A DNA stretch of 43,196 nucleotides from contig JAFZFH010000154.1 of assembly GCA_017555965.1 (NCBI GenBank), positions 1 to 43,196 of the forward strand, in the 5' to 3' direction. The position numbers and the translations under genes are program-made. The notes below the pieces were generated by a model. That model was not told the DNA's origin. It saw only the letters and a program-made list of their open reading frames with translations, and searched no databases. The DNA is from Bacteroidales bacterium. Lineage in GTDB: Bacteria > Bacteroidota > Bacteroidia > Bacteroidales > UBA932. Positions 12,471-43,196 of the stretch are shown here, one piece after another. The first letter of the stretch is position 1. Every line of letters begins with the position of its first letter.

Positions 12471-14729
12471 CTATTGTCTGGAGATTGTTGATCCAGGATA
12501 ATAATGCTGAAGTATCTCCGTATATCCGTATCCTTTTGAAGCCATTACGGCTGCGCCTATCTGGCAGAGTCCGACGCCATGTCCCCAGCCCTTTCCGTCG
12601 AGAATGACCTTATCACCTTCTATCCTCACATCAAAAGCCGAGCTCTTAAGGTGACTCTCGGACAATATGCGTCTGATTTCCAATTCCTTGCCCACAATGA
12701 TTTCGGCCTTATCGCCTTTAATCTTCAGTTTCATGATTCGTCCTGACACTCCTCTTTCAAGAGGTTCCATGGAGATGATTCTGCCGACATCAAGGCCGCT
12801 ACGATGACGGATAAGTTCGGACAGGACATCTATGTCATAGACTTCTGTCCAACGATAGAAATCCGTCGTTTCCTGATCATAGTTGTTGAGAACCTGGGAA
12901 AGAATCTCTTTGTCGGTTGTGTTGCAGAAGCACTCTCCGTCCGGATCGTTTCCCGGAGAGTCTGCGAGCGGCTGAAGATACGGCATATCCACATCGTCCC
13001 AACATGTAGAAAACTTCTCCATCACTCCGCCACAGCACTTCGAAAAGCGGGCATCACATAGCTGTCCGTCATATGTAAGAGTCTGTCCCCATGTCAAATC
13101 TATCACCTTGCGGACAGTTTCTCCGGTCGCACGGGTAAGTCCCTGATATCTTTGACAATGGTCGTCCGCACACACATCGAATGACTTATGGTCATCATGG
13201 TCGTACCATTTCACATATTCATATACCTTCGACGACTGTCCTGCGGCATCGGCACAAAATATCGAATCCAGATATGAGGTCAATGCCGGTACACCGTATA
13301 TTCCTTCCGGAACGCAGGCATGGTGGGCGCAACGGGCCTGTGCGAACTGTGCCATGACCCACGAACGGGAGATCACCGCATGGGCCTTGAGGAATTCCTC
13401 CGATGCCGAAGCACTCATCTCCGAAGATATCACACTCAGGAGATAGTCCTCGACGCCTATGACATTTACAGCTGTAAGCTTATCTTTCTCTACGATTATC
13501 TTGAGGGCTCCGGCAAACTTCTGATCTTCCTGTCTTTCCCAATGGAAATTGACTCCGATCGTCACTCCGAAAAGGGTGAATGAAGGCTCGGCAAAATAGG
13601 TCGAAGGGGTCGGGGCCTCAAAATAGAGCTCGTCGTACAGAGCTCCGTCATATTCGATCTTTCCTTCGCGCAGCACTGCCTTTCGAGGGCCTGCTCCATC
13701 AGAAAGGATCTCAAATCTGATCTCCTTTGCCGACATTATGCCTACATTAAGCAGCGGCTGGGTACGGGTAAGACGGTTTATAATCCTTTTCTGTTCCTCC
13801 TCAGACACCGACACTTCAGCAACCATTTCTCCCAGCAGTTCCGGAGTTATCTTATGATATTCCTCCTCAACGGGAACTATGAAGAAACCTCCCATGTCAG
13901 CGCAACCCGGACTCATCGTAAGATGATCAGGCCCATCACTGAAATAATGGTGAGAACGGTGGCGACTTCTGAAGACCACTACTGAGCGGTATTCTTTTCC
14001 GGTATAGTATGAGAAAAGATTGAACTGAGGCTCAGTGTCTCCTTCACGAAGTTCAGCACAGTCAAGAAGACGATAGAAAAGTTTTGCTGCGGATTTCGCT
14101 GTCTCTGAACGTATTACGAACACTCCACTTGTAAACTTGTCATAGTGGTAGAGATTCGCATCCTGGACAGATGTGATATACGTGACTGCTTCTGCATTCT
14201 GCTGACAGTCAAAAGAACTGTCCACATCCGAGCAAAGAGGAATCAATCCCTTCGGAGCCGCCTGAAAATGGTGATGATCCGGCGCCGATGCCCCACTCTT
14301 AGGACCGTTGTAGAAGAATGTGAATCCGGCATACTTACGGGCCAGATCCAACATGTCAATATATCTGTGCCATATGGTCTGGTCCGTATGCCTTGCTGCG
14401 GCAATGACCAGATGGTCCGGAAAGATCGGATAAGGATTTACAAGTATATGATATTTCTTATTCTTCCTGCCTTCAAATTTCAGCATGCTCTGCTCTGCAG
14501 GACGATTCTCACCGCATAAGAAGCACTTGCGCTTTGCGATCTCCGCCTTATCCAGTTTTGCTGCTGAGGAGACTATTCTTGCAGGATTGAACTGAAGCTT
14601 TACAGTCAGCCCTCCTATTTCCACTTCTCTTACCTTGACATTCTTCAACGCCCTGAAGTTATCACAGGCTAGAGGCCAGCGGGATAACTGGTCACCTACA
14701 AATTTATGCAGTATCTCGTTATTTTTCAT
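12471..14729 (-). CDS. DUF4922 (HIT-like) and SpoIID fusion protein
   Basis: A 752-aa two-part protein. The first 320 residues match DUF4922, related to HIT/galT-type nucleotidyl transferases and phosphorylases. They carry a Cys pair CFLCG (69-73) and APDHHHFQA with His152-154. From about residue 370 there is a SpoIID/LytB domain: [20 protein letters not shown], a region with Cys-Cys (FSKCCGG), and the C-terminal [13 protein letters not shown]. SpoIID domains are lytic transglycosylases acting on denuded glycan strands or amidase activators. No signal peptide is seen, so the location of the SpoIID part is puzzling. The start codon overlaps the upstream glycosyltransferase by 11 bases. Confidence 0.85.
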
Positions 14730-22602: not shown

Positions 22603-22604
22603 AG

Positions 22605-22685
22605 TGCGGATGATAGGACTCGAACCTACATGCCGTGAAGCACTCGCACCTGAAACGAGCGTGTCTACCATTTCACCACATCCGC
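22605..22685 (-). tRNA. tRNA-Leu (anticodon CAG)
   Basis: Acceptor GCGGATG pairs with CATCCGC, discriminator A. The anticodon stem CTCGT/GCGAG holds loop TTCAGGT, giving CAG. A long variable arm (TGCTTCACGGCA) is present, as expected for class II tRNA-Leu. The T-loop GGTTCGAGTCC is canonical. CCA is not encoded. Confidence 0.95.
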
Positions 22686-22749: not shown

Positions 22750-23544
22750 TCAAATCTCGACATCATATCTATAGATGCTCTCCCACCCTCCTATAACCAA
22801 CCTGATCTCCGTCTGAGCATAATCCAAAGTAACCGTAACATCACCCAGATCCTCTGCTGTCCAGTCATATCCGCTGGCAACAATATATCTTCCCAATGCA
22901 AACTCTCTATGATTCCCCACACCATCATCAATGACAAGCATAAGGGATGCATCTGTCTGCCTTGGCAATACAGCAGTATAACCTTCAGACAATCCCCCAT
23001 CAGTCAGGAGGAAGTCGAAATCTCCAGGGTAAGGATTCCCCACAGCATCATAACCGGCAACATTACCCTTGAGACGAAGGTCAGCATTTATTCTTCCGTC
23101 ACCTACGACAAGAAGGGTCATAACACAATGGTTTTTCCTCAAGATCACATCTGTCCGGAAACACTCCCCATCAGGTCTCACGTCAGAGTCATGCATATAT
23201 ACCCTGGGGCAATCCTGGCCGGATGGAATCAAGATTCCTTGACCCACCTCCAATTCGCCATAACCTGTCCAAGCCCTGATGTGAAGGTCTGCCCTAGGGG
23301 TATATACAGAGCCTTCCGCTTCAGAAAGATCAATCCTTTCCGACCACATAAATCCTTCACCTGAGGTGATCTGGATCTCAGCAGTCTCTGTCCTCACCTT
23401 ATCCGGGCACGTCATGCCGAACATCAGCAGACAAGAACACGGAGATCGATCCTCCTTGACAGAGCAGGCCGATGAAATCACCAGACCAACCAATGTGGCA
23501 ATACAGATTATATAGTTTCTGACACCTCTTCCGGACCTATCCAT
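22750..23544 (-). CDS. FimB/Mfa2-type fimbrial anchor lipoprotein
   Basis: A 264-aa lipoprotein. After the signal, ACSVKEDRSPCSCLLMF (Cys27) matches the FimB/Mfa2 family pattern of C-x-x-E-D-R-x-x-C-x-C. Members cap and anchor the base of type V (FimA/Mfa1) fimbriae. The rest is a beta-rich two-domain body ending in GGWESIYRYDVEI. It overlaps the 3' end of the fimbrillin gene by 37 bases if ATG 23544 is used. A GTG seven codons in would reduce this. No terminator is clear after it. Confidence 0.8.
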   Translation of the reverse strand: MDRSGRGVRNYIICIATLVGLVISSACSVKEDRSPCSCLLMFGMTCPDKVRTETAEIQITSGEGFMWSERIDLSEAEGSVYTPRADLHIRAWTGYGELEVGQGILIPSGQDCPRVYMHDSDVRPDGECFRTDVILRKNHCVMTLLVVGDGRINADLRLKGNVAGYDAVGNPYPGDFDFLLTDGGLSEGYTAVLPRQTDASLMLVIDDGVGNHREFALGRYIVASGYDWTAEDLGDVTVTLDYAQTEIRLVIGGWESIYRYDVEI

Positions 23545-24500
23545 TCCTCAATTTCGATATTGAATGTTACACCATACCTGTCCATATCCTGTTCAGGACT
23601 TGATGCGCCAGGACGAGTAATGTGCAGAGAGACATAATACCTTGTATTCTGTTCCAGCTTAGGCAGAGAAACAGGGTAATAGTATAACACTCCTCCCAAG
23701 GTTGCCTCTATTACCAGACGTGTAGGACGGGGGCTCCAGTTTGTCGAGAACGAATCACTTTCATAAGGATTCGGATAGCAGTAGAAATGGTGTTTCGTGG
23801 TATATTTCTTTGTTCCCTTGATATTCAGATCTGCAATCTGGTCATATACCATACCGTCCACCTTCGGATCAGACGACTGCACGATCTGATTATACCACAA
23901 TGTAGGATCTGCCGTTTCCGAGAGATAGTTCTTGTCCCCCGCAACATTGGTCAGATAGACCTTCTTCAGAATGAAATCCATATTGTCATATGCATCGACA
24001 TCAAAGTCTACTGTAACAGCATCAAGCACCACCTTGGACACGATTCTCTTTATCTTCACGGAGATACTTCCGCCGGATGCCGTCAGATCTGGCGAAGCAT
24101 ATCCTTCCATGACCAGACGGCCGGCGGAATTATCCGTAAGGCGAGACCTCGTCTTCTTCAGAGCCTCATAAGAAGATATTCCGCTTACATCAGGAGCATT
24201 GGCAAGAACAACTACATCCTTCTGTCCTGTAGTACATTGCATATTCACGCTTTGCGAAGAAGCATCAGGGGTTTCATAAGCCTCCAGCTTTCCGCTGGTC
24301 CTGTCATAAATAAGCACCTGATAACCGGAAACTGCCTTCTCCTCATTTCCACCTTCTCCAGAAACCTTTGTAGCCTCAGATTGAAGCTTTATCTCTAAAG
24401 AAACCATTTCCCTACCTTCCGCAGGCATATCCGCGTACTTCTCCTCACACGACAGCAACGCAAAAGAAAGCATTGCAGCAAAAATCATTTTTTTCTTCAT
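23508..24500 (-). CDS. FimA-type major fimbrillin lipoprotein
   Basis: A 330-aa lipoprotein (Cys18 in LLSC). The FimA/Mfa1-family N-terminal domain is recognised by VSLEIKLQSEATKV and VSGYQVLIYDRTSGKLEAY. Next come KDVVVLANAPDVSG, the SLTDN-like NSAGRLVMEGYAS and SISVKIKRIVSKVVLDAV. These are typical of Bacteroidales fimbrillins secreted as lipoproteins and polymerised by donor-strand exchange after protease trimming. The C-terminal ITRPGASSPEQ...FNIEIEEW motif is also usual. The precise class (major, or tip) is inferred from its size and place before the Mfa2-like gene. Confidence 0.8.
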   Translation of the reverse strand: MKKKMIFAAMLSFALLSCEEKYADMPAEGREMVSLEIKLQSEATKVSGEGGNEEKAVSGYQVLIYDRTSGKLEAYETPDASSQSVNMQCTTGQKDVVVLANAPDVSGISSYEALKKTRSRLTDNSAGRLVMEGYASPDLTASGGSISVKIKRIVSKVVLDAVTVDFDVDAYDNMDFILKKVYLTNVAGDKNYLSETADPTLWYNQIVQSSDPKVDGMVYDQIADLNIKGTKKYTTKHHFYCYPNPYESDSFSTNWSPRPTRLVIEATLGGVLYYYPVSLPKLEQNTRYYVSLHITRPGASSPEQDMDRYGVTFNIEIEEWIGPEEVSETI

Positions 24501-24513
24501 AGCATTATTAAGA

Positions 24514-26388
24514 TTAATTATTAACTGATTGTCTTCTCTTTACAAGATCAGACATTTCCGGATCCAGATTTGCCCTGTATTCCATATATGGATCATAAGT
24601 CAAAGCCAGGTCAAAGTATTTTTCAGCCTCGTCCATCACCCCAAGACGGGACAATATAAGCGCCTTCATATAACACACTCTGGCATCTCTATCATCAAGA
24701 TCATCAAGAACATCCAAGGCAGAATGATTATAATCGGCCGACATATATGCCAGTGCAGAATTGTAATCCCTGTAAGGTCTCAGATTTTCGACAGCCTTCT
24801 TATAATCAAGATTCTTCAAAGCTTCCAGTCCTGCCATATATATAGTATCAAGTTCAGTTGTATGTACCGTATCCTTCTGCATTCCGGCACGATGGAGGTG
24901 AAAGTCAAAACTTACGCTTCTGAGTCTCGGATAGATCTTTTCGCGCAGATACCTGTATTCCGGCATCTTAGAAATCTTCAACTCGACCTCGTCAGGTTTC
25001 TTCATATCTGCTGTAAGGTCCAATATCATCCTCCTGGCCGTCTGGCTCATAACTGTATCATTTGCGACTATGACCTTCAACCGTTCCCAATCCTCAGGTA
25101 CATGGGACGTCTTGACGCTGTCCCTCCATTCCTCAGGAATGAAATCCCATATATAATCCTTAATGGATTCCGATCGGGCTAATGCCAGCCTGCCGTTATG
25201 CGCATACGAGCCTTCCGGAGAGCAGGATGCCTTGATGATCAGAGAGTCCAACACATATTCCTTACGGGACACAACGTCACCGAAACACTTCACTACTCTG
25301 GCAATTTCTGAAGCATTGTCAGCTAGGGAGGTATCAATGACATGACTTCCTTTTGCGAAATCAATCAGGGCCTTCGTATTGTCATATACTGTTCTTTCAA
25401 GCACTATGACACAATATTTCGGCGTCATGTCAGCCATAGTAGATAATGAACTTATGTAGTAAGTCAGTTCTTCCGGGAACGGCAGAGCCTGAAGGCAGAT
25501 ACCATCCTCATAAATCTCCCCGACCAGATTGACCATGACCTTCTTCAAACCGGGACGGCTTCTGAACGTATGCATGTAACGATATATGAAATCGCCATCG
25601 GAAGACGTCAGAACAGTATCCAGACGGATACCCTCAGTCACAATAGGATCGCGCACCAGACGCTGATACATCTGCGACTTTCTGGACTTGCGACGTTCGT
25701 TGAAATAGACCTTCATATGCTTCGTATAGTGCCGCAGAGCCTCCGTCTGCGTCACACCGAATAGATTATGAGCGACAGGATCAGAAATCAGCGATGTATC
25801 ATTCTTCATCGCATAAGTTTCCGGATAATGTCTCTGAAGAAATATCTCCAGCTGCCCTACTCTGACCAGATCAGTAGTATCGTTAATTATGGATGCCAGA
25901 AACTTCCGATATCTCTGATACCCCCTCAACTGACCTTCCCTGTACATCTGTCCGGTAATATACAAGGGTTCCAGACCGAGAGAATCTTCCTGAATCTTCA
26001 TATACGGACGCAACTTCAGCTGCCATCTTGAAGAGGACATTTCTGATGGAACATTGACATCGAAACTTATCGAAACATATCCCGCTCTTTCTGCAACATT
26101 ACGGAACCTGGCAACAACTGTCGAGGCATTGATCACATCGGTTGCGACCATTTCTCCGGTCTCGCTATCTCTGATTGCATTCATGATGATCGGCCCCTCA
26201 GACAGGTCACTCCTTATGCTGTCTATCTTGAATTCCTTATCTGATTCATCTTCCAAGGGCTTCTCATCCGGTACTGAAATATCCATTCTGACCTCTCCGG
26301 TCTTGATTCTCTGCATTACACGTGACGTGGAACAGGATACAGCAATGAATGCAGCAACAACAAGTACAATCTTCACGTCAGAACACAT
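24514..26388 (-). CDS. OmpA-like/TPR lipoprotein of the fimbrial operon
   Basis: A 624-aa lipoprotein (Cys19 in AVSC). Residues 1-330 are of unknown fold. Around 370-430 lies an OmpA-like peptidoglycan-binding region with SPEGSYAHNGRLALARSES. The C-terminal 110 residues contain TPR-like helices (YMAGLEALKNLDYKKAVENL, AEKYFDLALTYDP). The same architecture occurs beside DUF3575 and fimbrillin genes in Bacteroidales, so an envelope anchoring or assembly role is likely. ATG 26388 is preferred to a TTG six bases upstream. It overlaps the DUF3575 gene by 11 bases. Confidence 0.72.
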   Translation of the reverse strand: MCSDVKIVLVVAAFIAVSCSTSRVMQRIKTGEVRMDISVPDEKPLEDESDKEFKIDSIRSDLSEGPIIMNAIRDSETGEMVATDVINASTVVARFRNVAERAGYVSISFDVNVPSEMSSSRWQLKLRPYMKIQEDSLGLEPLYITGQMYREGQLRGYQRYRKFLASIINDTTDLVRVGQLEIFLQRHYPETYAMKNDTSLISDPVAHNLFGVTQTEALRHYTKHMKVYFNERRKSRKSQMYQRLVRDPIVTEGIRLDTVLTSSDGDFIYRYMHTFRSRPGLKKVMVNLVGEIYEDGICLQALPFPEELTYYISSLSTMADMTPKYCVIVLERTVYDNTKALIDFAKGSHVIDTSLADNASEIARVVKCFGDVVSRKEYVLDSLIIKASCSPEGSYAHNGRLALARSESIKDYIWDFIPEEWRDSVKTSHVPEDWERLKVIVANDTVMSQTARRMILDLTADMKKPDEVELKISKMPEYRYLREKIYPRLRSVSFDFHLHRAGMQKDTVHTTELDTIYMAGLEALKNLDYKKAVENLRPYRDYNSALAYMSADYNHSALDVLDDLDDRDARVCYMKALILSRLGVMDEAEKYFDLALTYDPYMEYRANLDPEMSDLVKRRQSVNN

Positions 26389-26941
26389 AGGCAACAGATA
26401 TTACAAAGTCATCCGGACGGAGAAAGAACTTATTACCTGAAGAAAGTGTCAGTCCACATACCGGACAGGAATACTGCCTGTACGCAGCGAGACCGGCCCA
26501 TAATCCCACCCCGAATTCAAGATTGAAATGAGCGGAAAGCATATGGGTATAACCTGCATATAGCCCGGCCCCGAACCGGTCCCCTTCCTCTGTCTTTCTG
26601 GACAGGATTCCTCCTTCGTTATATTCCTGATATCTCAGCTTTCCTGCAAACCACCATCCTGACCATGTGTGCCATGGCCACATCCTCATACCTACAGAAT
26701 AGGATTGCTGACGGCTCTGGAACTGTCGCTGAGCATCACCTTTACGGAAGGTAAAAGGGTTATAACGAGCACCTGCTACAACGCTCCATCTACGGGAGAA
26801 GGCATATGAGGCATCCAGGTTCATAGTACCAAGACGGGCATACCCAAGAAGATCCGTTGAAACACTGAACGTCTGAGCAGAGGCATTATGACCTGACACA
26901 AGCAGACATATTGCCACTATCACTTTCAAATACAGCCTCAT
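26378..26941 (-). CDS. DUF3575 outer-membrane barrel-like protein
   Basis: A 187-aa protein with a signal peptide (1-22, NASAQ). The DUF3575 pattern is clear: STDLLGYARLGTMNLDASYA, RWSVVAGARYNPF, VGMRMWPW, GAGLYAGYTH and a C-terminal strand ending ISVAYVF, typical of outer-membrane barrels. DUF3575 genes are common in Bacteroidales fimbrial loci, where they may help assembly or anchoring. Function is not established. Two bases separate it from the peptidase gene. Confidence 0.78.
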   Translation of the reverse strand: MRLYLKVIVAICLLVSGHNASAQTFSVSTDLLGYARLGTMNLDASYAFSRRWSVVAGARYNPFTFRKGDAQRQFQSRQQSYSVGMRMWPWHTWSGWWFAGKLRYQEYNEGGILSRKTEEGDRFGAGLYAGYTHMLSAHFNLEFGVGLWAGLAAYRQYSCPVCGLTLSSGNKFFLRPDDFVISVAYVF

Positions 26942-26943
26942 GT

Positions 26944-28518
26944 CTACATGTATCTGTTAAAGATCAGTTCAATGGCATCGGAAAGTTCAGGATGACGTGC
27001 AATCAACGCACGTTTAAGTGCATCTTTTGTATTTACAGAAGACTGCAGAAGGGCAAAGATTTCCCCAGTTTCCACCCCCTTTTCCTCGACATAGCGCAGT
27101 ATCTGCGGATAGAACCAGAATGAAGTTCCGAATGCCGGATAATCTCCTCCATACCTGTCGTGCCACATCTTTGACGCCATATGATACGCCCACATCTCTC
27201 CAACCTCGCAATAACCTGAATTCATACCGCCTCCATCTCCATATGTCATTCCTCCGGAAGCCACATAAGATCCGAGAACATACATTATATATTTATTCCA
27301 ATAATCCGTACCTACATTGGAGAAATGGCTGGCATGGGCAAGTTCATGACAGACTTCAGAATAGATGGAACTGTAATCATCGCGTCCCTTCAGGCCGATA
27401 GTAAGATCCGGAAGAAATACTTGGAGCAATGGAGCGAAATCTCCAAGGAAAGAGGACACGAACGACATATCCAGCACGGCACCATGATGCATCATCAATG
27501 CACTGCTTGACTGCAGCTTGTGGAAGATCCATATACGCAGACCCGCAGGAGGCCTGGAGATGTTCAGATCGTCAAAATCGCAACGGTTATAGTAATCATA
27601 TGCAGTATTATTAGCCACGCATCTCTTGAAAAGCTTGCTCTCTGACTTCTCAGTTACAGTAACATTCACACCATCAGGAGCAGAAGTTCCCAGAGTAGAA
27701 GTGGATGCAGGTACCAATATTGCGTTGAAGCCGATGGAAAAGCCCTTAACATTTTCAAATACAAGACGATAATTGAGCTTCAAGGAAAACGTCTTGTCCA
27801 TCTTGTAATAACCGTTTTCATCCGTATAGGCATGAGCGAACTTGACAAATGAATTACATGATACACGCACTCCCTTGACTCCTACAGGTACACCACCGTC
27901 AAGATCTTTATCCACTATGGTAATTCTGCCGGAAGGGTATACCTTCTCCGCCTTTGTCTCAGGCAGCAGATGATCTGCGTTACCTGTCAGGAGGTATGCC
28001 TGACGCTCGACTGCCTCCCAATCTATTCCATCTGCGCTTCTTGTGGCAGGATCGTTCACTGAAATATGGCACTCGTCAATTATTTCATATTCCATTTCCG
28101 GAAAAACAAAATCATGCGGAACGACTGCATACTGCCACGTCATCTTATCGTCGGGGACTTCAGGATCGTGATACCAATCACCCTCCTTGACAATCTCATA
28201 ATCCAACGGATGGTCGCTTAACTTCAACTCATAACTTTCAAGCAATGCGAACTGTTCTTCTGTCTTAGGAAGAAACCTGACATACAGGTCGGTTGTCTTG
28301 ACCTCAACCCTGTCTGCTTTTGTCGGATATAAGGTCTGAAGCGCCTTTGTAATATTTTCTGTCTTGTAAGGATTCTCCAGACGAGCTCCCAAGACCATCT
28401 TCTCGTGGGACAGATTCCTGCCATACTGATAGTCAAGTCCATCATCAGCATCCATCCCTTCACCGCTGCATGACACCAACACCAGAGCCATGAGCATCAG
28501 TCTGATTTTACCTCTCAT
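26944..28518 (-). CDS. Zincin-type metallopeptidase-like lipoprotein heading the fimbrial operon
   Basis: A 524-aa lipoprotein (Cys17 in LVSC). Near residue 215-250 is a carboxypeptidase regulatory-like segment (GVRVSCNS, AYTDENGYYKM). The zincin motif HELAH (391-395) has a possible third ligand Glu438 or Glu441 in YCEVGEMW. This makes it likely to be a Zn-dependent peptidase, although the remaining fold is unfamiliar. ATG 28518 gives a clean signal peptide; the upstream codons to 28545 are unlikely. Being first in the operon, it should be made together with the fimbrillin. Whether it processes fimbrial subunits is inference. Confidence 0.7.
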   Translation of the reverse strand: MRGKIRLMLMALVLVSCSGEGMDADDGLDYQYGRNLSHEKMVLGARLENPYKTENITKALQTLYPTKADRVEVKTTDLYVRFLPKTEEQFALLESYELKLSDHPLDYEIVKEGDWYHDPEVPDDKMTWQYAVVPHDFVFPEMEYEIIDECHISVNDPATRSADGIDWEAVERQAYLLTGNADHLLPETKAEKVYPSGRITIVDKDLDGGVPVGVKGVRVSCNSFVKFAHAYTDENGYYKMDKTFSLKLNYRLVFENVKGFSIGFNAILVPASTSTLGTSAPDGVNVTVTEKSESKLFKRCVANNTAYDYYNRCDFDDLNISRPPAGLRIWIFHKLQSSSALMMHHGAVLDMSFVSSFLGDFAPLLQVFLPDLTIGLKGRDDYSSIYSEVCHELAHASHFSNVGTDYWNKYIMYVLGSYVASGGMTYGDGGGMNSGYCEVGEMWAYHMASKMWHDRYGGDYPAFGTSFWFYPQILRYVEEKGVETGEIFALLQSSVNTKDALKRALIARHPELSDAIELIFNRYM

Positions 28519-28557
28519 AACGTTTTTTATTTTATACAGAGGCAAAGTTCCCGAGAA

Positions 28558-28588
28558 TTATCCGCATACCGAAAAAGTATGCGGATAA
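28558..28588. repeat. Perfect 12-bp hairpin in front of the fimbrial operon
   Basis: TTATCCGCATAC (28558-28569) and GTATGCGGATAA (28577-28588) are exact inverse repeats with a seven-base loop. It is about 40 bases before the peptidase ATG and downstream of the deoC terminator. It lacks a T-tract on the plus side and has a short one on the minus side after a gap. It may be an operator or attenuator. Confidence 0.55.
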
Positions 28589-28589
28589 T

Positions 28590-28629
28590 TAAAAAAATCG
28601 CCCATCCACATAGGTAGAAGGGCGATTTC
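28590..28629 (-). terminator. Terminator of the ftsY-to-deoC operon
   Basis: AATCGCCC / GGGCGATT stem (28596-28603 with 28620-28627) followed on the minus strand by seven T. It lies 47 bases after the deoC stop. Confidence 0.85.
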
Positions 28630-43113: not shown

Positions 43114-43196
43114 AAGTGGCAGCTACCTACTCTCCCACCTGGTGGGGCAGTACCATCGGCGATGGTGAGCTTAACTTCTCTGTTCGGAATGGGAAG
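43114..43196 (-). rRNA. rrf: 5S ribosomal RNA, 3' part (partial)
   Basis: The minus strand reads the conserved 5S segments CCGAACAGAGAAGTTAAGC, and later CCACCAGGTGGGAGAGTAGG, which form the loop B-C and helix IV-V region, ending GTAGCTGCCACT. The 5' part is beyond the window. It implies an rRNA operon upstream on the minus strand outside this region. Confidence 0.93.

Follow-up and report, generated by a model that had tools for sequence, protein, structure and literature searches.

The type V pili of Bacteroidota are made of FimA/Mfa1 pilins, which are produced as lipoprotein precursors and cleaved at a basic site, and of Mfa2/FimB lipoprotein anchors, and their operons include DUF3575 and TPR accessory lipoprotein genes. 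In Porphyromonas gingivalis, the FimA and Mfa1 pilins are matured by gingipains (PMC11316588), with cleavage of Mfa1 at Arg49 (PMC10201998); according to a 2025 review, Bacteroides pilins are cleaved during assembly by a surface clostripain (PMC12632263), and PmC11 is described as accepting both Arg and Lys in the P1 position (PMC4850288). Here we report a computational analysis of a 43,196-nucleotide (nt) stretch of a gut Bacteroidales bacterium of the UBA932 lineage (GenBank assembly GCA_017555965.1, contig JAFZFH010000154.1), hereafter the window, in which five minus-strand genes comprise a gene for a HExxH lipoprotein peptidase followed by four pilus-type genes. The locus is probably a type V pilus operon whose pilin is matured by an Arg/Lys-specific protease encoded elsewhere in the genome, while the co-located thermolysin-like peptidase has a job of its own. 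Handles beginning with G, C, and L denote genomes, contigs, and loci. The five genes are as follows:

26944..28518, minus strand: peptidase gene, encoding a 524-residue lipoprotein (Cys17), with the ATG at 28518
26378..26941, minus strand: DUF3575 gene (Pfam match 2.6e-36; OMP_b-brl 0.0047, under its cut-off)
24514..26394, minus strand, likely ATG at 26388: OmpA-like/TPR lipoprotein gene, here OmpTPR (TPR_8 1.3e-4, under cut-off)
23508..24500, minus strand: FimA-type pilin gene, encoding a lipoprotein (Cys18)
22750..23544, minus strand: Mfa2-type anchor lipoprotein gene, with CSVKEDR at the lipobox cysteine, which resembles an export signal

Judged by gene content, genes 2-5 make up an unremarkable type V pilus operon, and all five genes, including that of the peptidase, are probably co-transcribed. 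A fimbria-like operon of type V headed by a HExxH lipoprotein had been noticed in an earlier sequence-only reading of this DNA, and this observation is confirmed, the HExxH lipoprotein being conserved. The window shares with the described type V pili the pilin family, the anchor fold, the lipoprotein precursors, the basic cleavage site, and the pairing of DUF3575 with a TPR accessory lipoprotein, but differs from them in that its operon is headed by the gene of an unrelated zincin lipoprotein and is without a separate recognised tip adhesin gene; the sole candidate signal for a tip adhesin was a match of the FimA-type gene to the FimD tip model (74.3 bits, under the cut-off of 170). The pilin is matched by the FimA family of Pfam (PF06321; 3.6e-8) and, by profile, by FimA in the PDB (1.4e-12), and the last gene has the features of a Mfa2/FimB-type anchor. 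The DUF3575 protein would be a small outer-membrane beta-barrel. An OmpA match was obtained for 10 of 14 OmpTPR homologues (best 0.0018), and the genome also encodes a DUF3868 protein to which OmpTPR is related. Rebuilding the OmpTPR and fimA profiles yielded no further members. Genes for DUF3868 and DUF3575 proteins (BT4233-36) and a Mfa1-type gene (BT4227) of Bacteroides thetaiotaomicron are placed together in one table of a published study (PMC10434189).

The genome carries other pilus loci, with 11 DUF3575 and five PF06321 matches in total. Contig C101 (L163) encodes DUF3575, DUF3868/TPR (8.8e-10), FimA-like (7e-5, with our own profile only), and Mfa2 (2.2e-63) proteins in the same order as the window, and no peptidase gene lies within the stretch fetched; the next open reading frame (ORF) upstream, truncated at the contig end, resembles MnmG rather than the peptidase. 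On contig C165, three FimA-like ORFs accompany DUF3575 and a relative of OmpTPR.

The lipobox cysteine is present in all 15 aligned pilins, an alignment that omits both ORFs of L046, a relative in which a fimA-like gene is split in two (L046:6947-7957). The putative processing site of the window pilin is encoded at the following position:

24366..24368, minus strand: Lys45 codon, which by profile alignment shares a column with the NRAF arginine of P. gingivalis FimA

We take this Arg to be the exact cleavage site of the P. gingivalis protein. The Lys45 column holds Lys in 11 and Arg in 4 of the aligned pilins and is thus basic in 15 of 15, a conservation that suits a clostripain with Arg/Lys specificity more than it does a zincin. 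A C11 (clostripain) match was found in 35 of 37 genomes of the window's genus versus 5 of 24 others, and the own-genome member on contig C5, a lipoprotein by its sequence (Peptidase_C11, 5.9e-25), is a cysteine protease of the fragipain-like kind, encoded elsewhere and unrelated to the operon peptidase. The distribution of the gingipain-type family C25, which also takes in the type IX secretion system (T9SS) sortase, is the reverse: 2 of 37 genus genomes, both with weak matches above the cut-off, versus 21 of 24 other genomes of the order. A gingipain was considered as pilin processor in the genus and was rejected on this count. We propose the following route for the pilin: it would be exported in lipoprotein form, an Arg/Lys-specific surface protease whose gene lies outside the operon (by analogy most likely the C11 lipoprotein on C5) would cleave it behind Lys45, and donor-strand exchange would then join it to the anchor, which is held by its lipid. 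Among the anchors, 22 of 33 satisfy a lipoprotein export consensus presented in the 2025 review and derived from other genera (PMC12632263), as do 3 of 65 peptidases but none of the 14 OmpTPR proteins or the 15 pilins; OmpTPR may be periplasmic, because none of its 14 sequences has this signal, and any assignment of the peptidase to one side of the membrane from these counts is conditional.

The peptidase carries its putative active site at two places, with residue numbers computed from the ATG at 28518:

27334..27348, minus strand: HELAH, residues 391-395, with H391 and H395 as putative zinc ligands and E392 as putative catalytic residue
27196..27198, minus strand: Glu441 codon, putative third zinc ligand, Glu in 62 of 65 peptidases

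All four residues (H391, E392, H395, and E441) are kept in 58 of the 65 aligned peptidases, the window protein among them, so that the expected conservation of HELAH among homologues holds. The first gene would encode a thermolysin-like zincin tethered as a lipoprotein in the outer membrane, with zinc bound by H391, H395, and E441 and with E392 acting as the base. The fold had been described as unfamiliar, which is not borne out: residues 195-524 of the predicted model have the thermolysin fold, and the fold of the N-terminal domain (about 27-190) was barely tested, only in the full-length context. Compared with thermolysin (M4), the peptidase has 11% identity and is a lipoprotein with a further N-terminal domain; its third ligand stands in GEMWAY (440-445), 50 residues past the first His, and NExxSD, the context of the third zinc ligand in M4, is absent. 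No match to the M4 family was seen among the Pfam or NCBIfam results for the 65 members at E 0.1. By these comparisons the peptidases are an unnamed zincin family for which neither Pfam nor NCBIfam has a model, and our searches of an open-licence library yielded no description of it. In a clade of six members (L034, L084-L088), probable pseudoenzymes by their sequences, HExxH residues have been lost, whereas the gene is retained together with DUF3575 and H398.

The peptidase, single-copy in its own genome (E 0.001), was matched in 57 of 61 genus genomes (its own included; a few matches being partial) versus 2 of 40 genomes from elsewhere in the order. A wider even draw gave matches in 29 of 393 genomes, two of them marginal, and in 25 of 206 genera. 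The neighbourhoods were compared over 60 genus rows of a quick tree, which include L031-L034, contigs of metagenome-assembled genomes that fall inside the genus clade and whose genus was not named by the tool, and omit L036 (same contig as L031) and L090-L092. DUF3575, OmpTPR, FimA, and anchor genes all accompany the peptidase in 16 of these rows, DUF3575 alone in 16, DUF3575 with the anchor in 11, and the anchor alone in 6; two rows have DUF3575 and the anchor, with fimA upstream on the opposite strand, and in nine rows none of the four was present, the stretch of L076 stopping shortly past the peptidase gene. Several stretches are clipped by contig ends, so these absences are upper bounds. 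Conserved peptidase-fimbrillin synteny in relatives, which the idea of a dedicated processing enzyme implies, therefore largely fails: 42 of 60 genus loci are without an adjoining fimA, and beyond the genus the gene next to the peptidase usually encodes a small lipoprotein. The 16 fimA-bearing operons lie on one side of a branch with a Shimodaira-Hasegawa-like approximate likelihood ratio test (SH-aLRT) value of 88, under the 95 mark, and the count of fimA operons on the tree fits gain and loss alike.

The peptidase and the pilin also occur apart at the genome level. FimA was matched in 52 of 63 genus genomes. A FimA match unaccompanied by a peptidase match was found in G025, G036, G037, and G040 of the same genus (G025, G036, and G040 being 58-78% complete) and in G186, G284, and G365 of the same family. 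Conversely, among 16 of the 26 non-genus peptidase genomes of the wider draw that were searched with PF06321, 15 gave no match, the exception being G273 with five. The non-genus loci (18 loci from 15 genomes, L137-L154) agree with this dissociation, in that the window-family profiles of the four pilus genes match a single gene across all of them (in L140). Within the sensitivity of PF06321, the conserved co-occurrence with a pilin that a dedicated processing protease would require was not found. These distributions suggest that the peptidase is an older neighbour of the pilus genes rather than the enzyme that trims the pilin.

Outside the genus, the usual partner of this wider Bacteroidales family would be a small lipoprotein. 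A small lipoprotein-like ORF of about 135-250 residues adjoins the peptidase in 15 of the 18 non-genus loci (L154 being doubtful), and the remaining three stop at a contig edge; the ORF is mostly downstream of the peptidase, upstream in L140 and L141, and often overlapping or tandem. Among the eight loci with divergent peptidases, five have such an ORF (L035, L093, L094, L096, and L097), L090 and L095 have no clear one (the L095 neighbour looks unrelated), and L091 leaves its contig. In all, small lipoproteins, at times as tandem rows of two or three, were seen beside the peptidase, mostly outside the genus, in L138-L144, L146-L149, L151-L154, L093, L094, L096, L097, and L035. None of the eight that were scanned passed a Pfam cut-off (best E 0.014), and their sequences read as sharing a Y.i.N.s-like start and a [FI]T[DE]xD-like end. 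A profile trained on these same neighbours gives circular scores for them; L153, outside the training set, scores 4.8e-15. From the pairing, we would guess that the small lipoprotein is an inhibitor of the peptidase. A broader picture, which we hold to be unlikely as it stands, is a Bacteroidales module of a thermolysin-fold outer-membrane lipoprotein protease and a small, fast-changing, often tandem lipoprotein serving as inhibitor or guard; the DUF3575 barrel and Mfa2-type anchor would have taken the place of the guard in one genus, which would couple pilus assembly to a second proteolytic step without gingipain or clostripain.

Several observations weigh against the preferred reading, in which the peptidase has its own job and a clostripain matures the pilin. 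DUF3575 and/or a Mfa2-type anchor accompanies the peptidase in 51 of 60 genus loci and the five genes stay joined in every one of the 16 fimA-clade rows, and because of this co-location some peptidase-pilus link is plausible. One peptidase of G273 (L140) lies near a FimA-like ORF, and the FimA-like gene of C101 escaped PF06321, which means that an absent match does not equal an absent pilus. The role of clostripain in the genus is argued by analogy; the export consensus is a weak guide because the pilins themselves fail it (0/15), and at least two acidic residues follow the cysteine in 18 of 65 peptidases. The sequence-only reading suggested one such peptidase-pilus link, in which the peptidase is a dedicated FimA maturase in a self-contained processing and assembly system. 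It would agree with the 16 of 16 joined operons, with the seven rows with a lost catalytic position all lying outside the fimA clade, and with the absence of a C25 match in 35 of 37 genus genomes, but it meets peptidases without FimA and FimA without peptidases, a conserved Lys/Arg site for which a C11 protease is available, a C101 pilus operon in the very same genome that has no peptidase, and the scarcity of the export signal among peptidases. With co-occurrence so patchy and a basic pilin site that suits clostripain, the claim is unsupported and we regard a maturase role as quite improbable; a self-contained pilin processing system is unlikely, strong as the co-location in the genus is.

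The peptidase might instead trim or clear another part of the pilus, the Mfa2-type anchor or the DUF3575 barrel, which are kept where fimA is absent (of the 60 genus loci, 45 have DUF3575 and 35 the anchor beside the peptidase). We consider this unlikely, given that neither gene is present in nine of the 60 loci (L076 at least ending soon past the gene), that neither was found adjoining the peptidase in the 18 non-genus loci, and that six peptidases of a clade that keeps DUF3575 have lost their catalytic residues. The same six, retaining the gene and H398 despite the loss of HExxH residues, would agree with a protein that has given up catalysis and serves the envelope as a structural or binding component, an explanation to which we give very little credence, as all four catalytic and zinc positions are intact in 58 of 65 members, including the window protein. 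Under the preferred reading, a type V pilus operon with a neighbouring peptidase that has its own job, this job would most likely be the cleavage of other envelope proteins.

Upstream of the peptidase gene, two further elements were found:

28556..28590, no strand: perfect palindrome with 14-nt arms, 38-72 nt ahead of the peptidase start, of a family of repeats resembling repetitive extragenic palindromes (REP-like)
28595..28628, minus strand: hairpin followed by a T run, 87% complementary, a probable terminator of the upstream deoC, not in the list of a simple terminator scan

In its own genome, the palindrome occurs at two places by a strict pattern and four by a looser one. The second copy (G000:C4:23057-23087; L170, L172) is just upstream of a gene for a 406-residue lipoprotein (L172:5804-7021, minus strand; G000:C4:21803-23020), which has no Pfam match and was found in 60 of 61 genus genomes but in none of the 40 others searched. 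From 30 loci of this lipoprotein, 26 genomes could be read at both upstream regions, G056 being unreadable and G035, G037, and G040 being without a mapped peptidase locus. The arms match within the genome and are divergent between species in five of the 26 (G000, G012, G016, G026, and G039), and the other 21 have no matching pair, with a single-site palindrome, another hairpin type, or none. G021 has eight copies among 12 pattern matches, ahead of unrelated genes, one adjoining a weak Y1_Tnp match (8.8e-4, under cut-off) and one preceding a PDDEXK_2 gene. The repeat unit, about 140 nt long and containing as many as three palindromes, precedes a TTTGC promoter-like box (window; G000; G021 and G026 copies L248-L255); in its last palindrome the TTATCCG/CGGATAA ends are conserved and the inner arms are specific to each species. 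A dedicated peptidase operator was rejected in view of the multiple copies before unrelated genes; we read the palindrome as a REP-like repeat because of these G021 copies and the 21 of 26 genomes without a matching pair.

Elsewhere in the window, a tRNA-Leu(CAG) gene (22604-22685, minus strand) lies 64 nt downstream of the pilus operon and is a possible integration landmark. A single protein combining DUF4922 and SpoIID domains is encoded at 12471-14729 (minus strand). A 5S rRNA gene (43114-43196, minus strand) runs off the end of the contig, which probably breaks at an rRNA operon.

An operon neighbour that resembles the missing pilus maturase is thus probably not one, and in this C25-poor genus a clostripain is the likely processor of the pilin. 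The more interesting lead is the peptidase family itself, together with its recurring small-lipoprotein partner.

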